NCBI GenBank assembly: GCA_039028635.1
Contig: JBCCHV010000063.1
Span: 1-38,881 of the forward strand
Reading direction: 5' to 3'
Source: Acidobacteriota bacterium
Lineage (GTDB): Bacteria > Acidobacteriota > Thermoanaerobaculia > Multivoradales > JBCCEF01
Length of the DNA: 38,881 nucleotides
Positions 21-38,881 of the stretch are shown here, piece by piece (the stretch's first letter is position 1; each line of letters starts with the position of its first letter). A program made the position numbers and the translations under genes. Below the pieces are notes generated by a model that was not told the origin of the DNA, ran no database searches, and saw only the letters and a list, made by a program, of their open reading frames with translations.

Positions 21-92
21 GCAGCTTGCTGAAAAACTCTTGACTCGGCGCATCTTTGGTTCTCAAGAGTTCCCGAGCCCGAGGGGCGAGGC

Positions 93-171
93 GGCGGCGA
101 AAGCCGCCGAGGACGGGGGTGAAGGCGCACGACATGTGCGAGTGCCTGAGGGGGGCGCCTTTAGCCCCCCT
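93..171. repeat. Structured module with GNRA-loop hairpin and GACAT-loop hairpin
   Basis: Three stems follow one another: GGCGGC-GAAA-GCCGCC (93-108), CGCAC-GACAT-GTGCG (126-140) and AGGGGGGC-loop-GCCCCCCT (149-171). Related modules occur near 38770-38881 in the same orientation and at 16801-16915 and 16973-17115 in inverted orientation. In those copies the second hairpin keeps GACATG in the loop while the outer stem bases change. Confidence 0.6.
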
Positions 172-195
172 GAAACAAACAGCAGGCGTTGAAGA

Positions 196-214
196 AGCCG
201 CCACGCGGCTTTTT
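196..214. terminator. Intrinsic-terminator-like hairpin inside repeat copy A
   Basis: AGCCGC-CAC-GCGGCT is followed by five T on the plus strand and preceded by an A-rich run, so it could act in both directions. The stem differs from the copy at 20005-20027 but is still paired. Confidence 0.5.
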
Positions 215-300
215 CAGCAGCCTGCTAACAGGTTGTCGCGGCTCGGCGGCAGCGCGGGAGATGTGCTCCCGGTGGTGAGGAAGGGGCGGTCAACGGCGCT

Positions 301-2077: not shown

Positions 2078-4714
2078 ATGTCGAAAAAGGCGTCGAAAAA
2101 GGTCGGTGGAAAGCTCACTCCGATGCTGCGGCACTACCTCGAGGTGAAGGCCGAACACCCCGACGCCATCGTGGTCTACCGCATGGGCGACTTCTACGAG
2201 CTGTTCTTCGAAGATGCGGTGACGGCGGCGCCGATTCTCGATGTTCAGCTCACCGCCCGGCAGAAGGGGACGGCCAACGAAACGCCCATGTGCGGCGTGC
2301 CGCACCACGCCATCGAGGGCTACATCGGCAAGCTCCTCGAGGCCGGCTTGCGAGTGGCGGTGTGCGACCAGGTCGAGGATCCGGCCCAGGCCAAGGGTTT
2401 GGTGCGGCGGGAGGTCACCCGGGTGGTGACGCCGGGCACGGTGAGCGACCCCAGTCTGCTCGACGGCAAAGAGGAAAACCTGCTGGCGGCGGTGGCCTGG
2501 GACGATCGGCGCGAGGAGGGCGCGATGGCCTCCCTCGATGTTTCGACCGGTGCCTTCGTTCTGCGCCGCTGGGCGAGCTCCGAGGAGGGCCTCGAGGACC
2601 TCGAGCTCAGCCGGCCGCGGGAGGTCCTCTACGAGCCCGACGAGGTGCCCTCGGAGATGGCCCGCTGGATCGAGAGCCAGGCGCCCTGCCGGACTCCCCT
2701 CGAAGGCGACCGCCTACTCGACCGGGCGCGCTCCGCGGAGCTCCTGGAGCGCCACTTCGGCACCGCGTCCCTGCGCGGCTTCGGGCTCGAAAAGGGAGAA
2801 GTGGCGATTCAGGCCGCCGCCGCCGCCCTCGCCTACGCGCGCGAAACGCAGCGCAGCGAGCTGTCCCACATCCAGACCCTGGAGGTGAGGACGGCGGCTG
2901 ATCGCGCCATCGTCGACGCCACCACGGTGGCCAATCTGGAGATCTTCCGCAGTCTGCGCGAGGGCGGTCGCAAGGGCACCTTGATCGGCGTCCTCGACCG
3001 GACGGTGACGGCACCGGGCGGCCGCACCCTCAAGGATTGGCTGCGCCGGCCGTTGCGCCAGCCGCCGGAGATCGCCCGCCGCCATCGTGCCGTTCGAGCC
3101 CTGCGCGAGGCGCCCGCGGAACGGGAGCGGGTGCGCCATCTGCTGGCTTCGGTGGGGGACCCGGAGCGCCTGCTCGGGCGCGCCGTGCTGGCCTCCCTGA
3201 CGCCCCGCGAGGCGGCGGCGCTGCGCGACAGCCTGACCGTGGTGCCGGAAATCTTCGCCACCATCGCCGATTCACCGAGCGGCGTGCTGGCGGATCTTGC
3301 CCGCATCGATCCCTGTGCCGATCTCGGCGAGCGCTTGACGCGCAGCCTCGAGGCCGAGCCGGCGGCCAGCCTCAAGGACGGCGGAGTGATCGCCACCGGC
3401 TTCGACGACGAGCTCGACCGCGTCCGCTCGCTGGCGCGCAACAGCAAGCAGCACATTCTGGCCCTCGAGGCACGCGAGAAAGAAGCTACCGGCATCACTT
3501 CCCTGAAGATCCGCTACAACCGGGTCTTCGGCTATTACATCGAGGTCACCAAAGCGAATCAGGACCTGGTGCCGGAGCACTACATCCGCAAGCAGACGCT
3601 GGTCAATGCGGAGCGCTACATCACCCCTGAGATCAAGGAGCTCGAGGAGGAGATTCTGTCCGCCGAGGAGCAGCAGGTGGCCCTCGAGCAGCGTTTCTTC
3701 GAAGAGCTCCGCCTCGGGATCGTCGCGGCCGGCGCCGCCTTGACCAGCCTCGCCGAGGCGGTCGGTGAGATCGATGCCCTGGCGGCCTTCGCCGAGGTCG
3801 CCGACCGCCGCGGCTACGTCGAGCCGGTGATGGCGGCGGCCGGTGGTGCCCTCGACATTCGCGAGGGCCGTCATCCGGTGGTCGAGCGGACGAGCCTCGA
3901 GGATTTCGTGCCCAACGATGTCGAGCTCGACGCCGAAGAGGCCCGCATCGTGCTGCTCACCGGTCCCAACATGGGCGGCAAATCGACCTACTTGAGACAG
4001 GTGGCCTTGATCTCGCTGATGGCCCAGGCCGGCAGTTTCGTCCCGGCGGCCGAAGCCCGCCTGAGCGTGGTCGATCGCATCTTCACCCGCGTCGGAGCGA
4101 GCGACGACCTCGCCCGGGGCGAGTCGACCTTCATGGTCGAGATGATCGAGACCGCCAACATTCTGCGCCACGCCACTCACGAGAGCTTGGTGGTGCTCGA
4201 CGAGGTCGGGCGCGGAACGGCGACCTTCGACGGCCTCTCCCTGGCTTGGGCGATCGTCGAGTATCTGCACCAGCATCGCCGGCCGAAGACCCTCTTCGCG
4301 ACCCACTACCATGAGCTGACGGAGCTCGCCACGCTGCTGCCGGGGGTGGTCAACCGCACCTTGGCGGTGAAGGAGTGGGGCGATCGCATCGTGTTCCTGC
4401 GCCGGGTGGTGCCGGGAAGCGCCGACAAGTCCTACGGCCTGCATGTCGCGCGCCTGGCGGGCCTGCCGGAGACGGTGGTGGAGCGGGCCGGCGAGGTGCT
4501 CGCCAATCTCGAGTCCCAGGAGTATGACCCTCAGGGGCGGCCGCGGCTCGCCGCCGGCTCGGTGCCGGAAGGGGCCAAGGCGGACCAGCTTCCGCTGTTC
4601 GTACCGGCGGAGCAGGTGGTGGCCTCGATCCTCCAGGAAACGGACGTCGATCAGCTCACCCCGCTGGCGGCCCTCAACCTGGTTCACTCGCTGAAGTCGC
4701 GAGTCGGAGGATGA
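2078..4714 (+). CDS. mutS: DNA mismatch repair protein MutS
   Basis: An 878-residue protein of normal MutS length. The N-terminal mismatch-binding motif GDFYELF (the F-x-E signature) is near residue 35. The ATPase domain has Walker A GPNMGGKST at about residue 630, then RGESTFMVEM, Walker B VVLDEVGRGT and the ATHYHEL segment. It recognises mispaired bases and recruits MutL. The start MSKKASKK (2078) was chosen over an upstream GTG-like extension that would overlap tsaB. It appears leaderless (TATACT 8 bases upstream). Its stop overlaps the next gene's start as ATGA. mutL is not in the window. Confidence 0.97.
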   Translation: MSKKASKKVGGKLTPMLRHYLEVKAEHPDAIVVYRMGDFYELFFEDAVTAAPILDVQLTARQKGTANETPMCGVPHHAIEGYIGKLLEAGLRVAVCDQVEDPAQAKGLVRREVTRVVTPGTVSDPSLLDGKEENLLAAVAWDDRREEGAMASLDVSTGAFVLRRWASSEEGLEDLELSRPREVLYEPDEVPSEMARWIESQAPCRTPLEGDRLLDRARSAELLERHFGTASLRGFGLEKGEVAIQAAAAALAYARETQRSELSHIQTLEVRTAADRAIVDATTVANLEIFRSLREGGRKGTLIGVLDRTVTAPGGRTLKDWLRRPLRQPPEIARRHRAVRALREAPAERERVRHLLASVGDPERLLGRAVLASLTPREAAALRDSLTVVPEIFATIADSPSGVLADLARIDPCADLGERLTRSLEAEPAASLKDGGVIATGFDDELDRVRSLARNSKQHILALEAREKEATGITSLKIRYNRVFGYYIEVTKANQDLVPEHYIRKQTLVNAERYITPEIKELEEEILSAEEQQVALEQRFFEELRLGIVAAGAALTSLAEAVGEIDALAAFAEVADRRGYVEPVMAAAGGALDIREGRHPVVERTSLEDFVPNDVELDAEEARIVLLTGPNMGGKSTYLRQVALISLMAQAGSFVPAAEARLSVVDRIFTRVGASDDLARGESTFMVEMIETANILRHATHESLVVLDEVGRGTATFDGLSLAWAIVEYLHQHRRPKTLFATHYHELTELATLLPGVVNRTLAVKEWGDRIVFLRRVVPGSADKSYGLHVARLAGLPETVVERAGEVLANLESQEYDPQGRPRLAAGSVPEGAKADQLPLFVPAEQVVASILQETDVDQLTPLAALNLVHSLKSRVGG

Positions 4715-5742
4715 TCGGCGGCGAGCTCTTGGTGGTGGGCTTCGAGGGGCCCTCCTTGACGTCGCCCGAAAGCGCCCTTTTGCGTCGCCTCGATCCCTTC
4801 GGGGTGATTCTCTTCGGACGCAACATCGAGGACGCGGCGCAGCTCCACGGGCTGGTCGGGGAGCTGCGCCGAGTGGTTCCCGGGGCGGTGCTCTGCCTCG
4901 ACGCCGAAGGCGGTCCCGTCGATCGTCTGAGGTCCGTCGTCGGCGCTGCCCCGGCCGCCGCCCGATTGGCCCGGCAGCCGGTGCGTCAGGCGCGCCGGGC
5001 GGGCCGCTGGATCGGCGCGGCGCTACATCATTTCGGCATCGGAATCGACTTCGCCCCGGTCGTCGATCTCGACCACGGGGCCTGCCGCAACGCTCTCGAC
5101 GAGCGCTATCTCGGATCTCGGCCGGGCGCCGTGACGGCGCGCGCCGGAGCCTTCCTCGAGGGCCTGCGGAGCGCTGCCGTGGAAGGCTGCCTGAAACATT
5201 TTCCGGGCCTCGGAGGAGCCGCCCAGGACACCCATTTCGAGGGTTCCGAAATCGATCGTAGCCGTGCCGCCTTGGCCGACGACCTCGCTCCCTTCACTGC
5301 CCTCCGGGACCGCCATGCCCCGGTGATGGTGGGCCACGCCAGCTATGCGCTCCTCGATCGCTCGGCGCGTCCCGCCTCGCTGTCGCCGGCGATCGCCAGC
5401 GATCTCCTGCGAGGTGAGCTCGGCTTTCGTGGCGTCGCCTTCAGCGATGACCTGGAGATGAAGGCCCTCGACCGCTGGGGTTCTCTGCCGGAACGCACCC
5501 GGGCAGCCCTCGAAGCCGGCTGTGATGGTCTTTTGATTTGTCGGCGCTTGGCCGAAGCGCCGGCCGTGGCGGAGGCGCTGGCGGCTCCGGAGCTGGCCTC
5601 CCGGCGGCGTCAGGCCGGGGAGCGCCTGTCAGAGCTGCGCCGGCGAATGGCGAGCTGGCGACCGCCCCGGCGCTGGAGCCTCGAGACGATCCGCCGTCGC
5701 CTCGAGGCGCTCGATCGAGCCTTGCCTTCGGCCCAGGGCTAG
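4711..5742 (+). CDS. nagZ: Glycoside hydrolase family 3 beta-N-acetylhexosaminidase (NagZ-like)
   Basis: A 343-residue single-domain GH3 protein. Visible motifs are FGRNIED (about 35-41), LDAEGGPVDRL (64-74), KHFPG (162-166), QDTH (172-175, the Asp-His pair used as acid/base in NagZ) and FSDDLEM (244-250, nucleophile region). NagZ removes N-acetylglucosamine from cytoplasmic muropeptides during wall recycling; no signal peptide is visible, in line with a cytosolic enzyme. One oddity is that the loop after KHFPG reads GLG where NagZ usually has GHG. The start overlaps mutS by four bases (ATGA). The TAG stop (5740-5742) is formed by the flanking TA plus the first base of the adjoining repeat element. 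Confidence 0.88.
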   Translation: MIGGELLVVGFEGPSLTSPESALLRRLDPFGVILFGRNIEDAAQLHGLVGELRRVVPGAVLCLDAEGGPVDRLRSVVGAAPAAARLARQPVRQARRAGRWIGAALHHFGIGIDFAPVVDLDHGACRNALDERYLGSRPGAVTARAGAFLEGLRSAAVEGCLKHFPGLGGAAQDTHFEGSEIDRSRAALADDLAPFTALRDRHAPVMVGHASYALLDRSARPASLSPAIASDLLRGELGFRGVAFSDDLEMKALDRWGSLPERTRAALEAGCDGLLICRRLAEAPAVAEALAAPELASRRRQAGERLSELRRRMASWRPPRRWSLETIRRRLEALDRALPSAQG

Positions 5743-5992
5743 CAGGTTGCTGAAAAACTCATCGGCAACCTGCTTCCGGGCCCGAGAGGGCTGGGCGCCC
5801 CCGGCCCAGCGGCGGCTCAGTCGCCGCGACGGTAGAGGAGGCCCAAGAACCACGCTTCTTGGGCCGCTGCGGGACGCGCAGTCAGGGGCGCTCAGCCCGG
5901 GGCGCGCAGTCAGGGGCGCGTAGCCCTCCTCGAAACACACAGCTAGCAGGGCTGGAAAAGGACGCGAAGCGGACTTTTTCAGCAGCCTGCTA
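5740..5992. repeat. TA-flanked palindromic repeat element (MITE-like), copy B
   Basis: The element runs TA|GCAGGTTGCTGAAAAA to TTTTTCAGCAGCCTGC|TA. A left hairpin pairs AGCAGGTTGC with GCAACCTGCT (10 bp). A central hairpin pairs GGCCCAAGAA (5840-5849) with TTCTTGGGCC (5856-5865). A unit of about 28 bases containing GCGCAGTCAGGGGCG is present twice (about 5871-5926). An internal decayed terminus TAGCAGGGCTGGAAAAG sits near 5943. The outermost TA at the left belongs to the nagZ stop and the TA at the right belongs to the ssb stop. No transposase is encoded. It is clearly homologous to 19992-20206 (inverted) and to the left part of 38530-38881. Confidence 0.85.
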
Positions 5993-6472
5993 GAAGGGAA
6001 TGTCGTCGTCGTCCATCTCCGGAGCGCCGCCGGCGTTCCCACCGCCGCCGCTACCGCCGCCGGAGCCGCCACCTCCGCCTCCGCCTCCGCCTCCGTAGCC
6101 GCCACCACCGCCGCCGCCGTAGCCGCCGCCACCGTCCATGTCGCCGCGCTGGCCGAGCATCTGGAAGTTGTCGCAGACGATCTCGGTGCGATATTTCTTC
6201 TCGCCGGTGTTGCGATCGTCCCAGGAGCGGGTCTGGAGACGGCCCTCAACGTAGATCTGCTTGCCCTTCTGCAGGAAGCGGCCGGCGATCTCGGCCTGCT
6301 TGCCCCAGCAGACGATGTTGTGCCACTCGGTCTGCTCCTGACGCTGGCCTTCGCGGTCCGTCCAGCGACGGTTGGTGGCCAGGCTGAAGCTGGCGACGGA
6401 CTGCCCCGACGGCGTGTTCCGTACTTCCGGATCACGGCCCAGATTGCCGACGAGAATGACTTTGTTGACCAT
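5990..6472 (-). CDS. ssb: Single-stranded DNA-binding protein
   Basis: A 160-residue SSB. An OB fold starts [18 protein letters not shown], with [22 protein letters not shown] and [13 protein letters not shown] at expected spacings (residues 1-105). A glycine/tyrosine-rich flexible linker follows (about 118-151), then an acidic tip ending DDDDIPF that binds partner repair proteins. The start at 6472 is set by GGGAGGAG upstream on the minus strand; the longer frame has no family similarity. The intact canonical C-terminus shows that the TAG stop is native even though it is now made by the edge of repeat copy B. The linker DNA is a long imperfect GGN repeat. Confidence 0.96.
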
Positions 6473-14701: not shown

Positions 14702-16777
<2,076 letters not shown>

Positions 16778-16800: not shown

Positions 16801-16915
16801 CCCCCTCGGCCGCACGCCCATGTCGTGCGGTGCGGCCGGCTAGGCCTCACCCCCCAAGTCCGGCGGCTTTCGCCGCCGCGCGCCCTCCCTCCGGAGGGCG
16901 CGTTCGTTTCTTGAG
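16801..16915. repeat. Structured GACATG-loop module, inverted copy 1
   Basis: The reverse complement matches the module inside repeat copy A: GGCGGC-GAAA-GCCGCC (plus positions 16862-16877) and a hairpin CCGCAC/GTGCGG (16810-16815 with 16825-16830) whose loop keeps GACATG on the minus strand. It starts about 24 bases after the hppA stop. Confidence 0.6.
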
Positions 16916-16972
16916 AGTTTTCTCTCCGTGGATCTGGTTCTGGAGCAACCGTTCTCATTCTGTCTCAGCTCC

Positions 16973-17115
16973 CCTCGGCCGCACGCCCATGTCGTGCGGT
17001 GCGGCCGGCTAGGCCTCACCCCTGGCCGGGCGCCCCCAAGTCCGGCGGCTTCCCGCCGCCGCGCGCCCTCCCTGCGGAGGCCGCCGCTCCCCGATCCTTC
17101 GGAGGGTGCGTTTGT
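16973..17115. repeat. Structured GACATG-loop module, inverted copy 2
   Basis: A near-identical repeat of 16801-16915 in the same orientation. The first 50 bases match exactly; later parts carry small insertions (a CTGGCCGGGCG block and an extra GC-rich piece). The CCGCAC/GTGCGG hairpin is at 16979-16999. The two copies are separated by about 58 bases of unrelated sequence. Confidence 0.6.
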
Positions 17116-18803: not shown

Positions 18804-19994
18804 GTGAGCGTGCACGACGGCGACGGCGATCGGCCCGCCGGCGGCGATCGGCCCGGGGGCATCGAGCGCTTCCGCGGCGAGCCCTCACGCCATCTCGCCG
18901 ACTGGCGTTGGCTATGGAGCGGGGACCACGGCTTTCCGATCGAGAGCCATCGCGGTTTTCTCGGCCGCCTGATCATCGCCTTCAAGACCCTCTTCCGGCC
19001 GCTGGTCAAGGCACCGGTGGCGGACCTCTGGGACCGGCAGCGCGTCTTCAATCTCATTTTGCTCGAGCATCTCGAGCAGTGGCAGAGCCTGCGCCACGAG
19101 GAGCGCCTGCATCACCTCGAGCGTTCCTTCCCGGCGGCGGTCAGCGACGCCATGCGTCACAACGACGCGCTGTTTGCCCGGGTCGACCAGAAGCTCGACC
19201 GCTATCGCCGGGAAGCGGCGGATCTGCGCCAGGTTCTGGGAGCGGCGGTAGCGGCCGTCGACGAACCCGGAACGGCGGTGGTGCGAGCCGTCGAGGAACA
19301 CGGCTATGTCGAGCTCGAACGACGCTACCGCGGCACTCAACGGGAGATTCGGGAGCGCATTTCGAGCTACCTCCCAGACCTTCGGGGGCGTGGTCCGGTC
19401 CTCGACCTCGGTTGCGGACGCGGCGAAGCCCTGGCGGTGCTGGGGAACGAAGGAATCGAGGCCCGCGGTGTCGACGGTAGCGCGGCGATGGTCGCTCAGT
19501 GCCGTGACGCCGGCCTCGAGGTGCGCGAAGGCGACCTCTTCGATGTCCTCAAGGAGCAGACTCCCGAGTCTCTCGGTGCGGTGGTGTCGTTCCACGTCGT
19601 CGAGCACCTGCCGCCCGGTGAGCTCGACCGCCTGGTGCGCCTCGCCTGGCGTGCCCTGCGGCCAGGGGGCGTGTTGATTCTCGAGACCCCCAACCCCTTG
19701 TCGGTGGTGGTGGCGGCGCGCAACTTCTGGCTCGATCCGACCCACCGTCGGCCGGTCCACCCGGAGAGCCTACGGCTGAGCTTCGAGCTCGCCGGCTTCG
19801 CGGTCGAGCATCGCGAGCTGCGACCTTTTCCGGCCGACGAGCGTTTGACCGAGATCGATCTCTCCGCCCTCGCCGGCGAGCATCGGGAGCTGGCGGATCG
19901 CATCAATCGCCTGCGCGATCAGCTCGACGACCTGCTCTTCGGAGCGCAGGACTACGCCCTGCTCGGCACCAAGCCGGAGCCCGAAGCACCCTAA
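18804..19994 (+). CDS. SAM-dependent methyltransferase, probably acting on a glycan
   Basis: A 396-residue protein. Residues 1-190 are helical and charged, with a possible membrane-associating or coiled-coil part (FLGRLIIAFKTLFRPLVKAP, then long helices). Residues about 195-310 form a class I methyltransferase: motif I VLDLGCGRGEAL, then GVDGSAAMVAQC, DLFDVLKE, FHVVEHLP and LRPGGVLILETPNP. The arrangement resembles methyltransferases that modify or cap surface polysaccharides; the substrate is not visible. The start is GTG with GGAGAA upstream. The TAA stop is formed by the TA flanking the neighbouring repeat element. Confidence 0.75.
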   Translation: MSVHDGDGDRPAGGDRPGGIERFRGEPSRHLADWRWLWSGDHGFPIESHRGFLGRLIIAFKTLFRPLVKAPVADLWDRQRVFNLILLEHLEQWQSLRHEERLHHLERSFPAAVSDAMRHNDALFARVDQKLDRYRREAADLRQVLGAAVAAVDEPGTAVVRAVEEHGYVELERRYRGTQREIRERISSYLPDLRGRGPVLDLGCGRGEALAVLGNEGIEARGVDGSAAMVAQCRDAGLEVREGDLFDVLKEQTPESLGAVVSFHVVEHLPPGELDRLVRLAWRALRPGGVLILETPNPLSVVVAARNFWLDPTHRRPVHPESLRLSFELAGFAVEHRELRPFPADERLTEIDLSALAGEHRELADRINRLRDQLDDLLFGAQDYALLGTKPEPEAP

Positions 19995-20206
19995 CAGGCT
20001 GCTGAAAAAGTCCGCTTCGCGGATTTTCCAGCGCTGCTAGCTATTTGTTCCGAGAGGGGCTACGCGCCCGTGACTGCGCGTCCCGGGCTGAGCGCCCCTG
20101 ACTGCGCGTCCCGCTCCGGCCCAAGAAGCGCGGTTCTTGGGCCTCCTCTCCCGAGCCCTCCAGGGCTCGGTCGCAGGTTGCCGATGAGTTTTTCAGCAAC
20201 CTGCTA
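19992..20206. repeat. TA-flanked palindromic repeat element (MITE-like), copy C, inverted
   Basis: Read on the minus strand it is a near copy of 5740-5992: the left hairpin AGCAGGTTGC/GCAACCTGC, CCGAGCCC/GGGCTCGG, GGCCCAAGAA/TTCTTGGGCC, two GCGCAGTCA units, the internal decayed terminus TAGCAGCGCTGGAAAA, and the right terminus. On the plus strand it begins TA|ACAGGCTGCTGAAAAAG and ends TTTTTCAGCAACCTGC|TA. It lacks about 35 bases found in copy B. The outer TA pairs supply the stops of the two convergent genes. Confidence 0.85.
20005..20027. terminator. Bidirectional intrinsic-terminator-like hairpin inside repeat copy C
   Basis: An A5-G run, stem TCCGC-TTC-GCGGA and a T4 run. On the minus strand the same stem is followed by CTTTTT. 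It stands between convergent genes, where it could stop both transcripts. Confidence 0.5.
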
Positions 20207-22681
20207 ATCGTCGCGGTTGGCGAGCTCTTCGCTGATCTCGTCGTCGAAGCCGAGGGGCAGGCGCTCGCCCTCCTTGGCGAGGTAGAAGGGACGCTGCTGG
20301 TACCACGGCAGCTCCATGATCTCGGCCCACTTCGGCTCGTACTCGCGGATCGGCTCGGTGCCCTGCAGGAAGGCCTCCTCGATCAGGCGCTCGGCGCCGG
20401 GGCCGGGAAGCAGGCCGGTGAAGTACTCGATCGACTGCAGGTTCACACCGGCGGGGGGTACGAACCGTTCGTCCGTCTGGATCCAGCCTTCGGCGAGGCC
20501 GTCTTCGACCACCTCTTGCCACATCGGCAGGGCGGCTTCGGCGCCGGTCATGTTGTAGCCCAAGGAACGCTTGCGGTCGTAGCCGACCCAAGAAAGGATG
20601 GTGTAGCGCGGCGTGTAGCCCACGAACCAGGCGTCGGTGTAGTCGTCGGTGGTGCCGGTCTTGCCGGCGAGATCCAGATCGAGGCCTTTGACGGCGGTGG
20701 CGGTGCCGCGATCCACCACCCCCTCGAGCACGTGGGACAACAGGTAGGCGATGCGTGGCTCCATCGCCGTGCTGGTGGTCGGAACATGGGCTTCCCGCAG
20801 CCGCCCGTCGGGCATTTCGACCCGCTCGATGGTGTAGGGCTCGACCCAGGTGCCGTGGTTGGCGACGGCGGCATAGGACGCCGCCAGCTCGAGGGGGGTC
20901 ATCTCCGAGACGCCGAGGGCCAGGCTGGGGTAGGGCGGCAGCTCCGACTCGACTCCGCAGCGGCGGGCGAACTCGATCACGCTCGGAACTCCGACCATGT
21001 CCTGGAGCTTGACCGAGGTGATGTTCGCCGACAGCTCGAGGGCCCGCCGTAGGGTGATGATGCCGTAGTAGCCGCGATAGTAGTTTCGCGGCACGTAGCT
21101 CAGCTCGTTGTCACCGCCGAGGAAGGCGGTGGGACCGTCGAGGAGGGTGTCGGCCGGGGTGAAGCCGGCCTCGAGGGCGGCGCCGAAGACGAACAGCTTG
21201 AAGGCCGAGCCCACCTGGCGCTTCGCCTGGGTGACGCGGTTGAACTTGTTGCGCCGGTAGTCCCAGCCGCCGACCATTGCGCGCACCGCTCCGGTCGCCG
21301 ACTCGAGCACCACCAGGGCGGCTTCCATCTCCGGCTCCTGCTCGAGGTAGAGCACCGGCTCGACGACCGCCTCCGGGTTCTCCGGATCGGCCTCCGGCGT
21401 CACCAGCCGGAACCAGGCGACATCGCCCGGCTCGAGCAGGGAGCGGGCGCTGCGCTTCTTGGTCCAGCGATAGCCCTCGGGACCGAGGGTGTAGCTCTGA
21501 CCGGCGATTTCGATCTCCGCTCGGGCGCCGTCGACGGCGGTCACCAAGCCGTGGATCCAGCGCTCCGCAGGGGCTCCGTCGAGGCCTTGCCAGGCCGCCA
21601 GGGTGCGCGCCTCTTCGTCCTCGAGGTCGACGTGATCGATCGCGCCTCGCCAGCCCTTGCGGCGATCGAGGCGAGTCAGGCCCGCCCGTACCGCCGACTC
21701 GGCGCTTTCCTGAATCGCCCGATCCATCGTCGTCCACACCTGCAGGCCACCGGAGGTGACGGCGTCGCTACCGTAGGTGGACTCGAGGTGCTTGCGAACC
21801 TCTTCGGCGAAGTACGGGCCGAGGCGATCCTTGGGCTGTTGCTCGATGACCTCGAGAGGGGTGGCGAGGGCGTCGTCGTACTGCTGTTGGTCGATGAACT
21901 GCTCCGCCAGCATGCGCCGCAGGACGCGGTCCCGACGGCGCTGAACCAGCTCCGGCCGGCGATAGGGGCTGTAGCGCGACGGTAGCTGGACAATGCCCGC
22001 CAGGGTGGCCGCCTGGGGCAGGTCGAGCTGATCGACGGACTTGCCGAAAAAGTACTGCGAGGCCGCCTCCATACCGTAGTTGCCATGGCCGAGATTGACC
22101 AGGTTGAGATAGAGGGTGAGGATCTGGTCTTTGGAGTAGTTCTTCTCCAACTCGACGGCGAGGAAGGCCTCTTCGATCTTGCGGCTCCAGGTCTGTTCCG
22201 GAGTCAGGAAGAGCATGCGGGCAAGCTGCATGGTGATGGTGCCGGCGCCGGAGACGATCTCGCCGGCCCGATAGTTGGCGATCTGGGCCCGCGCCACGGC
22301 GAAGGCGTCGACGCCGCCGTGGCTGAGGAACTCGGAATCCTCGATGGCGATCACCGCATTGCGTAGCAGCTCGGGAATCTCGTCCTCCTCGAGCAGGATG
22401 CGACGCTCGAAGGCGAAGCTGCCGAAGACGTCGTCGTTGCGGTCTCGTAGCTGGGTGATCAGGTTGGGAGTGAAGCCGGCGACGGTTTCGACTTCGGGGA
22501 CATCGATGGCGGCAGCGAAGCCGAGCCCGCCGACGATTCCGAGAATGCCCGCCAACAGCACCGGAATGCTCCAGCGCCAACGTTGCTTTCCGCCCCTGCG
22601 GACGGCCGCGAGGACGCTGCGGCGGCGGGAATTCGAGGGCGGGGGAGTCGCGTTTTCTGGGGGGCTCGGGGCGCTGTCCAT
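20204..22681 (-). CDS. Class A penicillin-binding protein (PBP1-type)
   Basis: An 825-residue bifunctional enzyme. Order: a Pro/Ser-rich cytoplasmic tail, one transmembrane helix (about 36-60), glycosyltransferase GT51 domain (AIEDSEFLSHGGVD near residue 112, GAGTITMQLARMLFL, then the EKNYSKDQILTLYLN segment), a linker domain, and the transpeptidase with S-A-F-K (about 492), SAN and KTGT (about 671). It polymerises and cross-links peptidoglycan outside the membrane. GT51 enzymes usually have EDRRF and STITQQ; here the segments read EDSEF and GTITMQ. The start at 22681 was chosen because TATAAT lies 7 bases upstream, predicting a leaderless mRNA. The TAG stop comes from the adjoining repeat element. 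Confidence 0.92.
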   Translation of the reverse strand: MDSAPSPPENATPPPSNSRRRSVLAAVRRGGKQRWRWSIPVLLAGILGIVGGLGFAAAIDVPEVETVAGFTPNLITQLRDRNDDVFGSFAFERRILLEEDEIPELLRNAVIAIEDSEFLSHGGVDAFAVARAQIANYRAGEIVSGAGTITMQLARMLFLTPEQTWSRKIEEAFLAVELEKNYSKDQILTLYLNLVNLGHGNYGMEAASQYFFGKSVDQLDLPQAATLAGIVQLPSRYSPYRRPELVQRRRDRVLRRMLAEQFIDQQQYDDALATPLEVIEQQPKDRLGPYFAEEVRKHLESTYGSDAVTSGGLQVWTTMDRAIQESAESAVRAGLTRLDRRKGWRGAIDHVDLEDEEARTLAAWQGLDGAPAERWIHGLVTAVDGARAEIEIAGQSYTLGPEGYRWTKKRSARSLLEPGDVAWFRLVTPEADPENPEAVVEPVLYLEQEPEMEAALVVLESATGAVRAMVGGWDYRRNKFNRVTQAKRQVGSAFKLFVFGAALEAGFTPADTLLDGPTAFLGGDNELSYVPRNYYRGYYGIITLRRALELSANITSVKLQDMVGVPSVIEFARRCGVESELPPYPSLALGVSEMTPLELAASYAAVANHGTWVEPYTIERVEMPDGRLREAHVPTTSTAMEPRIAYLLSHVLEGVVDRGTATAVKGLDLDLAGKTGTTDDYTDAWFVGYTPRYTILSWVGYDRKRSLGYNMTGAEAALPMWQEVVEDGLAEGWIQTDERFVPPAGVNLQSIEYFTGLLPGPGAERLIEEAFLQGTEPIREYEPKWAEIMELPWYQQRPFYLAKEGERLPLGFDDEISEELANRDD

Positions 22682-22688
22682 GGTGGCG

Positions 22689-22694
22689 ATTATA
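22689..22694 (-). promoter_or_regulatory. -10 box for the class A PBP gene, predicted leaderless
   Basis: A consensus TATAAT on the minus strand ends 7 bases before the ATG, with no Shine-Dalgarno between and a poor -35. The CGCCACCATGG start context matches that of tsaB. Confidence 0.6.
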
Positions 22695-22813
22695 GGGCCA
22701 ATGGGGCGCGTTAAGATGCCCGTGGGCTGCCGGGGCATTCGTCCCTCGGGCCGATGCGGGAGCTAGTCGAGGCTGAAGTCGAGCGTCCCCGAGACAGCCC
22801 TTGGAGGAGGCCC

Positions 22814-36708: not shown

Positions 36709-37850
36709 GCGAGCAGCGGCTGCAGAAGATTTTGGCGCGGGCAGGGGTGGCGTCGCGGCGCGGCGCCGAAGAGCTGATCGTTGCCGGTCGGGTGACGGTC
36801 AACGGCAAGGTCGCCGAGATTGGCGTGCGGGTCGATGCCGAGAAGGACTCGATCAAAGTCGACGGTAAGCGCATCGCCGCACCGACCCCGGACCGCTACC
36901 TTGTGCTCAACAAGCCGCGGGCGGTGATGTCGACGGTCGCCGATCCGGAAGGGCGACCGACGGTGATGGAGCTGGTGCCGCGGGACCTGCGCAAGGCTTT
37001 GGTGCCGGTCGGGCGGCTCGATTTTCTCACCGAGGGCTTGCTGCTGTTGACCGATGACGGCGACTTCGCCCAGCGGGTCGCCCATCCGCGCTACGGCTGT
37101 ACCAAGACCTACGAAGTGAAGGTCAAGGGTTTTCCCGAGGAATCGGCAGTGGATCGCCTGCGCGAAGGCATCGTGCTCGATGGCAAGCGCACCTCGCCGG
37201 CGCGCATCGAGCGGCGCCGGACCCAGCGCCGGCCCGGCGAGAAGGCGCCGACCAACAGCTGGTGGACGGTCGAGATCGGCGAGGGTCGCACGCGCCAGAT
37301 CCGCGAGATGTTCCAGCGCATCGGGCATCCGGTGGGCAAGCTGCGGCGGGTCGCCATCGGCACCCTGCGCGACGACACGCTGGCGCCGGGAGAGCTGCGG
37401 CCGCTGACCGAACGTGAGGTGGCGGCGCTGCTCAAGCCGACGCCGAAGAAGAGCTCACCGACCAAGAAGGGTGCTGCCGCCAGGAAAGGCCCGGCCGGGA
37501 AAGGCTCCGCCAGGAGTGGCCCGGCTAGGAAAGGCCCGGCCAGGAGTGGCCCCGGCAGGCAAGGCCCGGCGAGGAAGGGATCCGCCGGCAGTGGTCCAGC
37601 CAGGAAGGGCCCGGCCAAGACGGGACCCGGCCCAAAGCCGGGCGGAGGAGCGAAGGCCGGTTTCCGGCCGAGCTCGAAAGGGGCGCCCAAGGGACCTCGT
37701 GGAGGCCCGGCCGGGGGGCGCTCCGGCGCCGGCCGGCCAACGCGCGGTGGAGGTCAAGGCGGCGGTGGTCGTCCGGGCCGGCCTGCAGGCCGGCGAGGTG
37801 GCGGGCCGGCGGGCTCGAAGCCGCGCGGTGGAGCGACCAAGAAGCGATGA
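36705..37850 (+). CDS. rluB: 23S rRNA pseudouridine synthase, RluB/RsuA family, with a long basic tail
   Basis: A 381-residue protein. An N-terminal S4 domain (RLQKILARAGVASRRGAEELI, residues 5-25) precedes the catalytic core with VGRLDFLTEGLLLLTDDGDF (about 104-123, catalytic Asp in RLD), KTYEVKVKGFP and GRTRQIREMFQRIGHPV. RluB makes pseudouridine in the peptidyl-transferase region of 23S RNA. Residues about 245-381 are a disordered Gly/Pro/Arg/Lys tail built partly from six-residue GPARKG/GPARSG repeats (18-base DNA repeat, roughly 37480-37640). RluB versus a close RsuA paralogue is inferred from the scpAB context. Confidence 0.88.
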   Translation: MSEQRLQKILARAGVASRRGAEELIVAGRVTVNGKVAEIGVRVDAEKDSIKVDGKRIAAPTPDRYLVLNKPRAVMSTVADPEGRPTVMELVPRDLRKALVPVGRLDFLTEGLLLLTDDGDFAQRVAHPRYGCTKTYEVKVKGFPEESAVDRLREGIVLDGKRTSPARIERRRTQRRPGEKAPTNSWWTVEIGEGRTRQIREMFQRIGHPVGKLRRVAIGTLRDDTLAPGELRPLTEREVAALLKPTPKKSSPTKKGAAARKGPAGKGSARSGPARKGPARSGPGRQGPARKGSAGSGPARKGPAKTGPGPKPGGGAKAGFRPSSKGAPKGPRGGPAGGRSGAGRPTRGGGQGGGGRPGRPAGRRGGGPAGSKPRGGATKKR

Positions 37851-38512
37851 GCCTGGTGGTCGCGATCGACGGCCCCGCCGGGGTCGGCAAGAGCACGGTG
37901 GCGCGTCGGTTGGCGGAGCGCCTCGGCATTCCCTATCTCAACACCGGCGCCATGTACCGCGCTCTGGCGTTGGCGGTGCTGCGCGCCGGAATCGATCCCG
38001 ACGACCGCGCCCGCGCCGTCGAGGTGGCGTTGGCCGCCGACGTCGTGCTGCAGCCGCGGGACAACGGCGAGGTCGCCATTCTGCTGTCCGGCGAAGACGT
38101 TGGTGGTGCCCTCTACACGCCCGCCGTCGGGGCCGCCAGCTCTCGCCTGGCAGCCTACAGCGAGGTGCGACGGCGCATGGTGGAGCTGCAGCGGGTCTGC
38201 GGTCGCCGCGGCGGCGGCGTGCTCGAAGGGCGCGACATCGGCACCGTGGTTTTCCCGGAGACACCCCACAAGTTCTTCGTGACGGCGCGCCCGGACGTCC
38301 GCCACCAGCGCCGCTGGCGCCAGCTCCGGGACTCCGGCAAGGAGGTCACCCTGGAGACCGTGGCCGCCGAGATGGCGAGCCGCGACCGTCGCGATGCCGA
38401 GCGCGAGGACTCTCCCCTCACCCTCGGTGAGGGCTACCGCGAAGTGGACACTTCCGACGTCTCCATAGATCAGGTGGTCGACCTGCTGGTGGCCGCCGTC
38501 CAGCCGCGCTGA
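37847..38512 (+). CDS. cmk: Cytidylate kinase
   Basis: A 221-residue protein. P-loop GPAGVGKS (residues 8-15), the NMP-binding segment YLNTGAMYRALALAVLRAGID, EGRDIGTVVFP (about 126-136), KFFVTARPDVRHQRRW, the lid-like RDRRDAEREDSPL, and a C-terminal VDTSDVSIDQVVDLL. It phosphorylates CMP/dCMP. Its ATG overlaps the rluB stop (ATGA), extending the operon to four genes. The mosaic repeat element starts 17 bases after the stop. Confidence 0.96.
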   Translation: MSLVVAIDGPAGVGKSTVARRLAERLGIPYLNTGAMYRALALAVLRAGIDPDDRARAVEVALAADVVLQPRDNGEVAILLSGEDVGGALYTPAVGAASSRLAAYSEVRRRMVELQRVCGRRGGGVLEGRDIGTVVFPETPHKFFVTARPDVRHQRRWRQLRDSGKEVTLETVAAEMASRDRRDAEREDSPLTLGEGYREVDTSDVSIDQVVDLLVAAVQPR

Positions 38513-38529: not shown

Positions 38530-38881
38530 TAGCAGGTTGCTGAAAAACTCGTCGGCAACCTGCTTTCGGGCCCGAGAAGGCTGGGCGCCCCCCGCCCGGC
38601 GGCGGCGTAGCCGCCGCGACGGGAGAGGGAGGCCCAAGAACCGCGCCTCTTGGGCCGGAGCGGGACGCGCAGTCAGGGTCGCGTAGCCCCTCTCGAAACA
38701 GACAGCTAGCAGCGCTGGAAAAGATCAGGTTTGAGGACTTCCGACCCGCGTGGGACCCCGAGCCCAGCGGGCGAGGGGGCGGCAAAGCCGTCGAGGACGG
38801 GGCCGCCCTGGATTGGGGTGAAGGCGCACGACATGTGCGTCGCCGGGCCGCGCAGGCCTGAGGGGGGCGCCTTTAGCCCCC
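38530..38881. repeat. Mosaic TA-flanked repeat element, copy D, open at the window end
   Basis: The left part matches copies B and C: TA|GCAGGTTGCTGAAAAA, the 10-bp hairpin, GGCGGCGGCGTAGCCGCCGC, the GGCCCAAGA...TCTTGGGCC stem, one GCGCAGTCA unit (B and C have two), and the internal terminus TAGCAGCGCTGGAAAA. After that it switches to the module of copy A, with GGCGGC-AAA-GCCGTC, CGCAC-GACAT-GTGCG and the GGGGGGC stem, and leaves the window before a right terminus. Confidence 0.8.

Follow-up and report, generated by a model that had tools for sequence, protein, structure and literature searches.

GTAG-tagged repetitive extragenic palindromes (GTAG-REPs) are described, in passages of PMC3733652, as often lending a TAG to the flanking open reading frames and as lying mainly between unidirectional and convergent genes. 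Among insertion sequences (IS), passages of PMC9241763 and PMC3281130 give CTAG as the 4-bp repeat of the IS5-group element ISMysh01 and 2-bp repeats for most of the listed IS427-group elements, and a title cited in PMC2170065 refers to a preference of IS630 for CTAG. On the side of gene arrangement, a passage of PMC2174442 lists the tetramers consistent with opposite stops as CTAA, TTAA, CTAG and TTAG, i.e. YTAR; by the genetic code, a four-base tail-to-tail overlap is always YTAR. Here we describe copy C, an element that lies between the converging ends of a methyltransferase gene and a class A penicillin-binding protein (PBP) gene in a 38,881-nucleotide stretch of an Acidobacteriota bacterium of the class Thermoanaerobaculia (the window; contig JBCCHV010000063.1, assembly GCA_039028635.1). 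Copy C is probably one copy of a non-autonomous IS5-type transposon, similar to a miniature inverted-repeat transposable element (MITE), which inserts at CTAG and less often at CTAA or TTAG.

Results

Copy C ends in imperfect inverted repeats (CAGGCTGCTGAAAAA...TTTTTCAGCAACCTG), its edges read ...GCACCC TAA CAGGCTGCTGAAAAAG ... CTTTTTCAGCAACCTG CTAA TCG, and the minimal duplication at the site is TA. The initial annotation had put the methyltransferase TAA on the left TA and the PBP TAG on the right TA, which the coordinates and gene calls reproduce exactly (Table 1). Removal of the element and one TA does place both stops on a single TA, the same stop arrangement recurs at copy B between a glycosidase and an SSB gene, and sequence comparison agrees that copies B and C lie in opposite orientation, all as had been proposed. 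From the sequence of the host genome alone we infer that the two stops would have had a TA in common before copy C inserted. In three relatives (the sister genome G001, Acidobacteriota OFTM223 and Acidobacteriota OFTM268) the same two genes converge with no element between them, at stop-to-stop distances of 15, 17 and 5 nt, respectively, and therefore the tight tail-to-tail pair predates copy C.

The window's genome (G000) is a 6.28-Mb draft of 117 contigs, with 67% G+C in the first stretches examined. A pattern of the element's termini (up to 3 mismatches) gave 163+166 matches in G000 and 3 for a reversed-pattern control, and copies were sampled from the first 100 listed places of this pattern. 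The first sample comprised 60 stretches chosen for holding copies plus the window (1.13 Mb, 914 genes by a home-made hexamer caller), and the held-out sample comprised 40 stretches (0.71 Mb), 14 around listed ends and 26 chosen regardless of copies; both samples made up 29% of G000, mainly copy-selected stretches. Of the 61 pairs of ends in the first sample, 57 were kept once nested pairs and those whose mismatches summed to more than 3 had been discarded; among the discarded pairs, L096 686-916 is itself a double-stop copy, i.e. one with a gene stop at both edges. The held-out sample gave 9 more, so that G000 contains at least 66 paired copies, a lower bound from the 29% sampled. The 26 copy-blind stretches held 1 paired copy, and many of the 163+166 ends were unpaired or at contig tips. 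The copies are short (100-414 bp), non-coding and numerous, with a CTAG/YTAR target and a 2-4 bp duplication, as in an IS5-family MITE, and the MITE-like family in G000 is real and well defined. Contig tips of G000 (e.g. C108, C95, C26, C12 and C105) begin or end inside copies, which indicates that the assembly breaks at this family and that longer copies may be missing.

A gene stop lies exactly at an edge in 45 of the 66 copies and at both edges in 11. Where the neighbours were known on both sides (n=56), 25 copies were between convergent, 29 between co-directional and 2 between divergent genes, and no paired copy in either sample was within a called gene (0/66). Among 60 genes running into a copy, 56 ended at the edge TA, 3 ended 11 nt inside and 1 ended 15 nt inside, so the stop-at-edge position in G000 is no frame accident. 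In 13/57 copies an edge adjoined an apparent second element end, one CTAG being common to both. The rule proposed in the initial annotation, that the elements insert in or are retained at tail-to-tail gene ends, was too narrow in view of the 11/66 double-stop copies and of 25 convergent against 29 co-directional positions out of 56, and its core, an excess at double-stop sites, holds. The tabulation of flanking gene orientation and stop distance that it called for did not give a majority in divergent promoters or away from stops.

The stops at the edges appear to be the natural stops of these genes. Among 16 edge genes with an orthologue, drawn from stretches of G001, the C-terminal length was within 5 residues in 13 and identical in five; this proportion (81%) was matched by 80% of 101 control genes, with median differences of 2 and 1. 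Three edge proteins, SSB and two that in our own reading are presumably LepA and PEP carboxylase, end at the same residue as the G001 orthologue. Moreover, one filled/empty pair was found, in which a 45-bp relative follows the stop TA of a G001 gene ending ...TWITQ and the G000 orthologue reads ...TWITQ TAA, element-free. Such likeness of C-termini to those of orthologues indicates that most insertions landed on pre-existing stops, and the sequences suggest that the edge stops are natural stops and not truncations. The 45-bp relative (L143:1568-1612) is palindromic, TA-flanked and placed exactly at a stop codon, and one end of the ~210-bp element, with an internal CTAG, looks like such a mini-element.

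The flanks of 57 copies were CTAG/CTAG in 37, CTAG/CTAA in 7, CTAA/CTAA in 1 and 12 other combinations once each. With TA kept on both sides, deviations fall mainly in the outer base, and a copy in genome G129 is flanked by TTAG/CTAA; hence TA is favoured as the duplicated unit, the G and C then being the element's own, and the flanks favour an apparent 2-bp TA duplication over a 4-bp one. Weakening this, drift is conceivable in the outer base, which at stop edges falls on codon wobble, and both flanks of copy C read CTAA, so that the duplication may yet be one of 4 bp. A wider palindromic preference, roughly GnCnGC-TA-GCnGnC, was seen in non-stop half sites and, taken as a score, reappeared at stop half sites (p = 0.002, with p = 0.007 to 0.16 for positions taken singly); the 41 sites analysed leave out copies that adjoin a further element end and those whose edges do not both carry TA. 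This motif resembles the element ends GCAGGC, and unrecognised adjacent remnants may contribute to it. CTAG itself is scarce in G000: base composition predicts 3418 sites, and 550 were counted, copy edges included.

Unoccupied CTAG sites, summed over both samples and excluding those with neighbours not known or with a stop inside another gene, served as the background for placement. They numbered 232 in genes and 88 in divergent gaps; convergent gaps had 46 stop sites (1 of them double) and 25 sites away from stops, and co-directional gaps had 101 and 105, respectively; the occupied sites numbered 23 and 2 in convergent and 18 and 11 in co-directional gaps. Copies avoid divergent gaps (2/56 vs 88/365 unoccupied CTAG, p = 1.6e-4) and genes (0/66 vs the 232). 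The share at stops was raised in convergent gaps (23:2 vs 46:25, p = 0.009 with both samples combined; 22:2 vs 25:6, p = 0.44, no difference, in the first sample alone) and did not differ in co-directional gaps (18:11 vs 101:105, p = 0.23). Choice of CTAG/YTAR and loss of harmful insertions thus account for much of the stop association, and we consider stop placement to be largely explained by them, and partly precedented.

The excess at shared stops is a different matter: statistically solid but unexplained. Double-stop to one-stop convergent sites were 11:12 among occupied sites, CTAA/TTAG included, vs 1:45 among unoccupied CTAG only (p = 7e-6), and 11:12 vs 3:68 in the all-YTAR version (p = 4.6e-6). 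In the first sample by itself the p values were 1e-4 (CTAG) and 4e-4 (YTAR), and the held-out set contributed 1 double-stop and 0 one-stop convergent copies. Copy-selected stretches raise occupancy, and the both-to-one ratio should be unaffected by them.

Related ends occur elsewhere in the class. A CTAG-plus-end pattern (2 mismatches) is present in 24/148 genomes, and more than 10 matches per strand were found only in G000, G001, G013 and G129. In G013, of another family of the order, we found a complete 1338-bp IS5-family element (L121:6093-7430) with CTAG flanks and ends GAGCTTGCTGAAAAA, which are similar, not identical, to CAGGYTGCTGAAAAA of the window family. It encodes a 358-residue DDE transposase with Pfam DUF772 and DDE_Tnp_1, which scores 254 bits with NCBIfam transpos_IS5_4 (cut-off 140) and 205 with the IS1182 model, under the cut-off of 270. 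MITEs of 158 bp with the same ends occur in this genome, eight copies of which are 91-99% identical (median 96.5%). An IS427-type transposase was rejected, PF13340 being absent in five genomes, and likewise an IS630 origin, PF13358 (DDE_3) giving no match in G000 and G001.

In the other genomes, a stop was at the edge in 3/9 copies of G013 (none double, 7/9 co-directional), 3/5 of G129 (none double), 0/2 of G133 (both divergent), 1/1 of G011, 0/1 of G035 and 7/12 of G001 (two double, some G001 pairs being doubtful).

Other features of the window

The features of the window are collected in Table 1. Both proteins flanking copy C lack 4 residues of length in G000 relative to their G001 counterparts. 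The best relatives of the PBP among the matches listed were two Acidobacteriota metagenome-assembled genomes (54% and 52%), and a Thermoanaerobaculia one among the matches listed showed 46% over part of the protein only; on this evidence the host is probably an acidobacterium. The stop-at-edge arrangement was not found at copies A and D, both at the ends of the window: the closest gene end to the right of copy A is 111 nt off, and the CTAG of copy D is 16 nt past a gene end at 38512.

Tandem 15-bp repeats at 37479-37628 lie in a coding region and yield a repetitive protein stretch. Identical 52-nt direct repeats (16802-16853 and 16971-17022, spacing 169 nt) occupy the gap after a gene ending at 16777. 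A G+C-rich module is found at 103-140 (inside copy A), at 38802-38839 (downstream of copy D) and, inverted, at 16844-16879 in that 16.8-kb gap, and is perhaps another repeat subfamily.

Table 1. Positions of copy C, its flanking genes and the other copies in the window
Feature	Position	Strand	Basis or remark
Copy A	22..224	.	End-pattern pairing; left edge at the contig start; no stop at right edge
Glycosidase gene (GH3 domain), ends at copy B	4711..5742	+	Pfam and gene call; stop ends at 5742
Copy B	5743..5989	.	Sequence and gene calls; CTAG-flanked; both neighbours' stops in flanks
SSB gene, ends at copy B	5990..6472	-	Pfam and gene call; stop begins at 5990; ...MDDDDIPF tail, identical in G001 orthologue
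Methyltransferase gene, ends at copy C	18804..19994	+	Pfam Methyltransf_23 and gene call
Left flank CTAA of copy C	19991..19994	+	Contains methyltransferase stop TAA 19992-19994
Copy C, MITE-like element body (~210 bp)	19995..20203	.	Orientation opposite to that of copy B
T run with terminator-like stem, at one end of copy C	20006..20023	-	Stem 20023-20011, then CTTTTT; scan as a whole at the level of shuffles (9 vs 8.9 expected)
Internal palindrome of copy C	20118..20143	.	Folding; 10-pair stem
Terminal hairpin, other end of copy C	20173..20204	.	Folding
Right flank CTAA of copy C	20204..20207	-	20204-20206 is the PBP stop TAG
Class A PBP gene, ends at copy C	20204..22738	-	Pfam Transgly, Transpeptidase and gene call
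Copy D, single recognised end	38533..38722	+	Sequence comparison; CTAG flank not a stop

Discussion

We propose the following mechanism for copy C and its family. Directly observed are the copies with their flanks and stop positions, the agreement of C-termini with those of orthologues, and the bias in sites. Insertion at CTAG, less often CTAA or TTAG, would duplicate at least the central TA, and TA plus the element's first base (usually G) reads TAG outward on both sides, so that insertion at a TAG or TAA stop would leave the protein unchanged. Where antiparallel stops overlap on one TA, insertion would give each gene its own complete stop. Since CTAG is scarce and insertions in genes and divergent promoters are seldom kept, stops form a large share of the tolerable sites. 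Mobilisation would be by an IS5-type transposase, a four-base stop overlap would have existed before insertion at copy C, and the abundance of double-stop copies would reflect long retention there and not insertion preference. Trimming might, for instance, harm the coding sequence of either neighbour, or the copy might serve the cell as a two-way terminator.

Several observations weigh against this reading. A four-base overlap at the site of copy C was found in 0/3 relatives (G001, OFTM223 and OFTM268), and neutral insertion would not lead to the double-stop excess. An unpaired, CTAG-flanked end (L053) falls inside a called gene. In G001 the frame bias is weaker, with 9 genes ending at the edge, 4 ending 11 nt inside and 2 ending far inside doubtful pairs, and its double-stop numbers are too small for a test (2:3 among occupied sites; 0:8 among unoccupied CTAG and 3:14 among unoccupied YTAR). 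Tests of age gave p = 0.08 for double-stop copies and p = 0.80 for convergent copies against the rest. Single surviving ends were not commoner at stops (12/25 vs 56/132 full-copy ends, p = 0.66), which does not support pinning or shielding of single ends there. Finally, no matching transposase was found in the host or its sister: G000 and G001 were without a match to the G013 transposase (P0001), DUF772 (PF05598), DUF4096 (PF13340) and PF13358, a search that did not take in PF01609 and other DDE families, and a long copy could be missing at contig ends. The link to IS5 therefore depends on the resemblance to ends found in other genera.

One alternative, a real but minor possibility, is that the copies are domesticated two-way terminators, kept between overlapping convergent genes because their hairpins would stop transcription both ways and separate the genes. 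Folding speaks for it: of the 57 copies, the 50 shorter than 300 nt all reached z < -3 on whichever strand folded better, and 94% did so on each strand, vs 20% of control gaps (60 sampled from 179, 30 shuffles each), copy C itself gave z = -5.0 and -7.6, and a terminator-like stem before a terminal T run, at one end only, was present in 19/57 copies vs 2.5% of shuffled ends. The double-stop excess also counts in its favour. Yet double-stop copies do not fold more strongly than the others (median z of -6.28 with two stop edges, -6.36 with one and -6.83 with none), 38/57 copies lack a terminator-like stem by the criteria used, and window-wide terminator scans were at the level of shuffles (11 vs 9.6; 9 vs 8.9), with none in copy B. 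RNAalifold on both ends yielded no usable structure, orientation and subfamilies being probably mixed.

That the insertion machinery prefers tail-to-tail gene ends, through supercoiling, collision zones or a longer motif, is unlikely. Convergent sites are over-used (25/56 copies vs 71/365 unoccupied CTAG), and the recurrence of the wider GnCnGC-TA-GCnGnC score in stop half sites points the same way. However, the double-stop term persists in a logistic model that includes this motif, so that the motif is not supported as the source of the excess; the model is to be read with the caution that the motif was trained on occupied non-stop halves, which inflates the scores of other occupied sites. 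Moreover, stop-edge copies were less similar to their nearest relative (p = 0.03, 57 copies), and double-stop copies numbered 0 among the 17 closest copies vs 10/40 others (p = 0.025, with a cut-off set after viewing the list). The highly similar copies of G013, mostly co-directional and none at a double stop, likewise argue against targeting. Double-stop copies thus tend to be old, which hints, on small numbers, at retention over targeting as the source of the excess.

An origin as a REP or REPIN sequence moved by a REP-associated tyrosine transposase (RAYT, Y1 type), in which TAG would belong to the repeat and the target would not be duplicated, is very unlikely and was rejected. GTAG-REPs share the gene gaps and the TAG-giving termini in passages of PMC3733652, and RAYT-like Y1 genes exist, two in G000 (L098 and L100) and four in G001 (L099, L101, L102 and L103); none of these six loci is bounded by the element's ends, a DDE transposase lies between ends of this design in G013, and natural edge stops fit TA duplication better than stops supplied by the element. 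Short CTAG-containing repeats lie beside some Y1 genes (e.g. L101 and L103).

The weakest alternative, that after insertion the genes were cut short at a TAG already present in the element, is scarcely credible and was rejected: a gene entering from either side can meet TAG in one frame, and in many copies TGA 11 nt inside in another (as used by 4 G001 genes), but the frame counts in G000 are 56:3:1 and not near-equal, the C-termini of edge genes are no more variable than those of controls, and element-free orthologues with the same C-termini were seen for several genes.

The IS5-type reading of copy C links a transposon target, YTAR, to a class of gene overlap, the four-base tail-to-tail one, and means that mobile elements can widen the spacing of convergent genes with the proteins untouched. 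Selection for keeping convergent genes apart can be tested directly on the unexplained excess at shared stops. A bolder version, in which a YTAR-targeting transposon finds overlapping convergent genes, un-overlaps them without protein change and is then kept as a two-way terminator, we regard as speculative and rather doubtful. A MITE enriched at shared convergent stops did not appear among the best-ranked titles and abstract beginnings in literature searches, most subscription papers being outside their scope.

Comparison with known systems

The four-base convergent overlaps of PMC2174442 have the same YTAR tetramers, and the relevant passages draw no link to a transposon target. TA target duplication is a trait in common with IS630/Tc1-mariner elements and the RUP MITE (passages of PMC2170065 and PMC2229807), whose IS630-type DDE_3 transposase (PF13358) was, in contrast, not found in G000 or G001. 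The IS5 family offers CTAG or 2-bp repeats (in passages of PMC9241763 and PMC3281130), and the relative in G013 belongs to it by NCBIfam; the window family differs in that its members have nowhere near the length of a transposase gene and in that no matching G000 transposase was found in the families searched. GTAG-REPs are alike in being palindromic repeats at convergent and unidirectional gaps with termini that often provide a TAG stop, and, as described in passages of PMC3733652, they are palindromes of 20-40 bp associated with Y1 RAYTs, whereas the window family consists mostly of inverted-repeat elements of ~200 bp that have CTAG at both edges, either or both of which can serve as stops, and has a relative with a DDE transposase.

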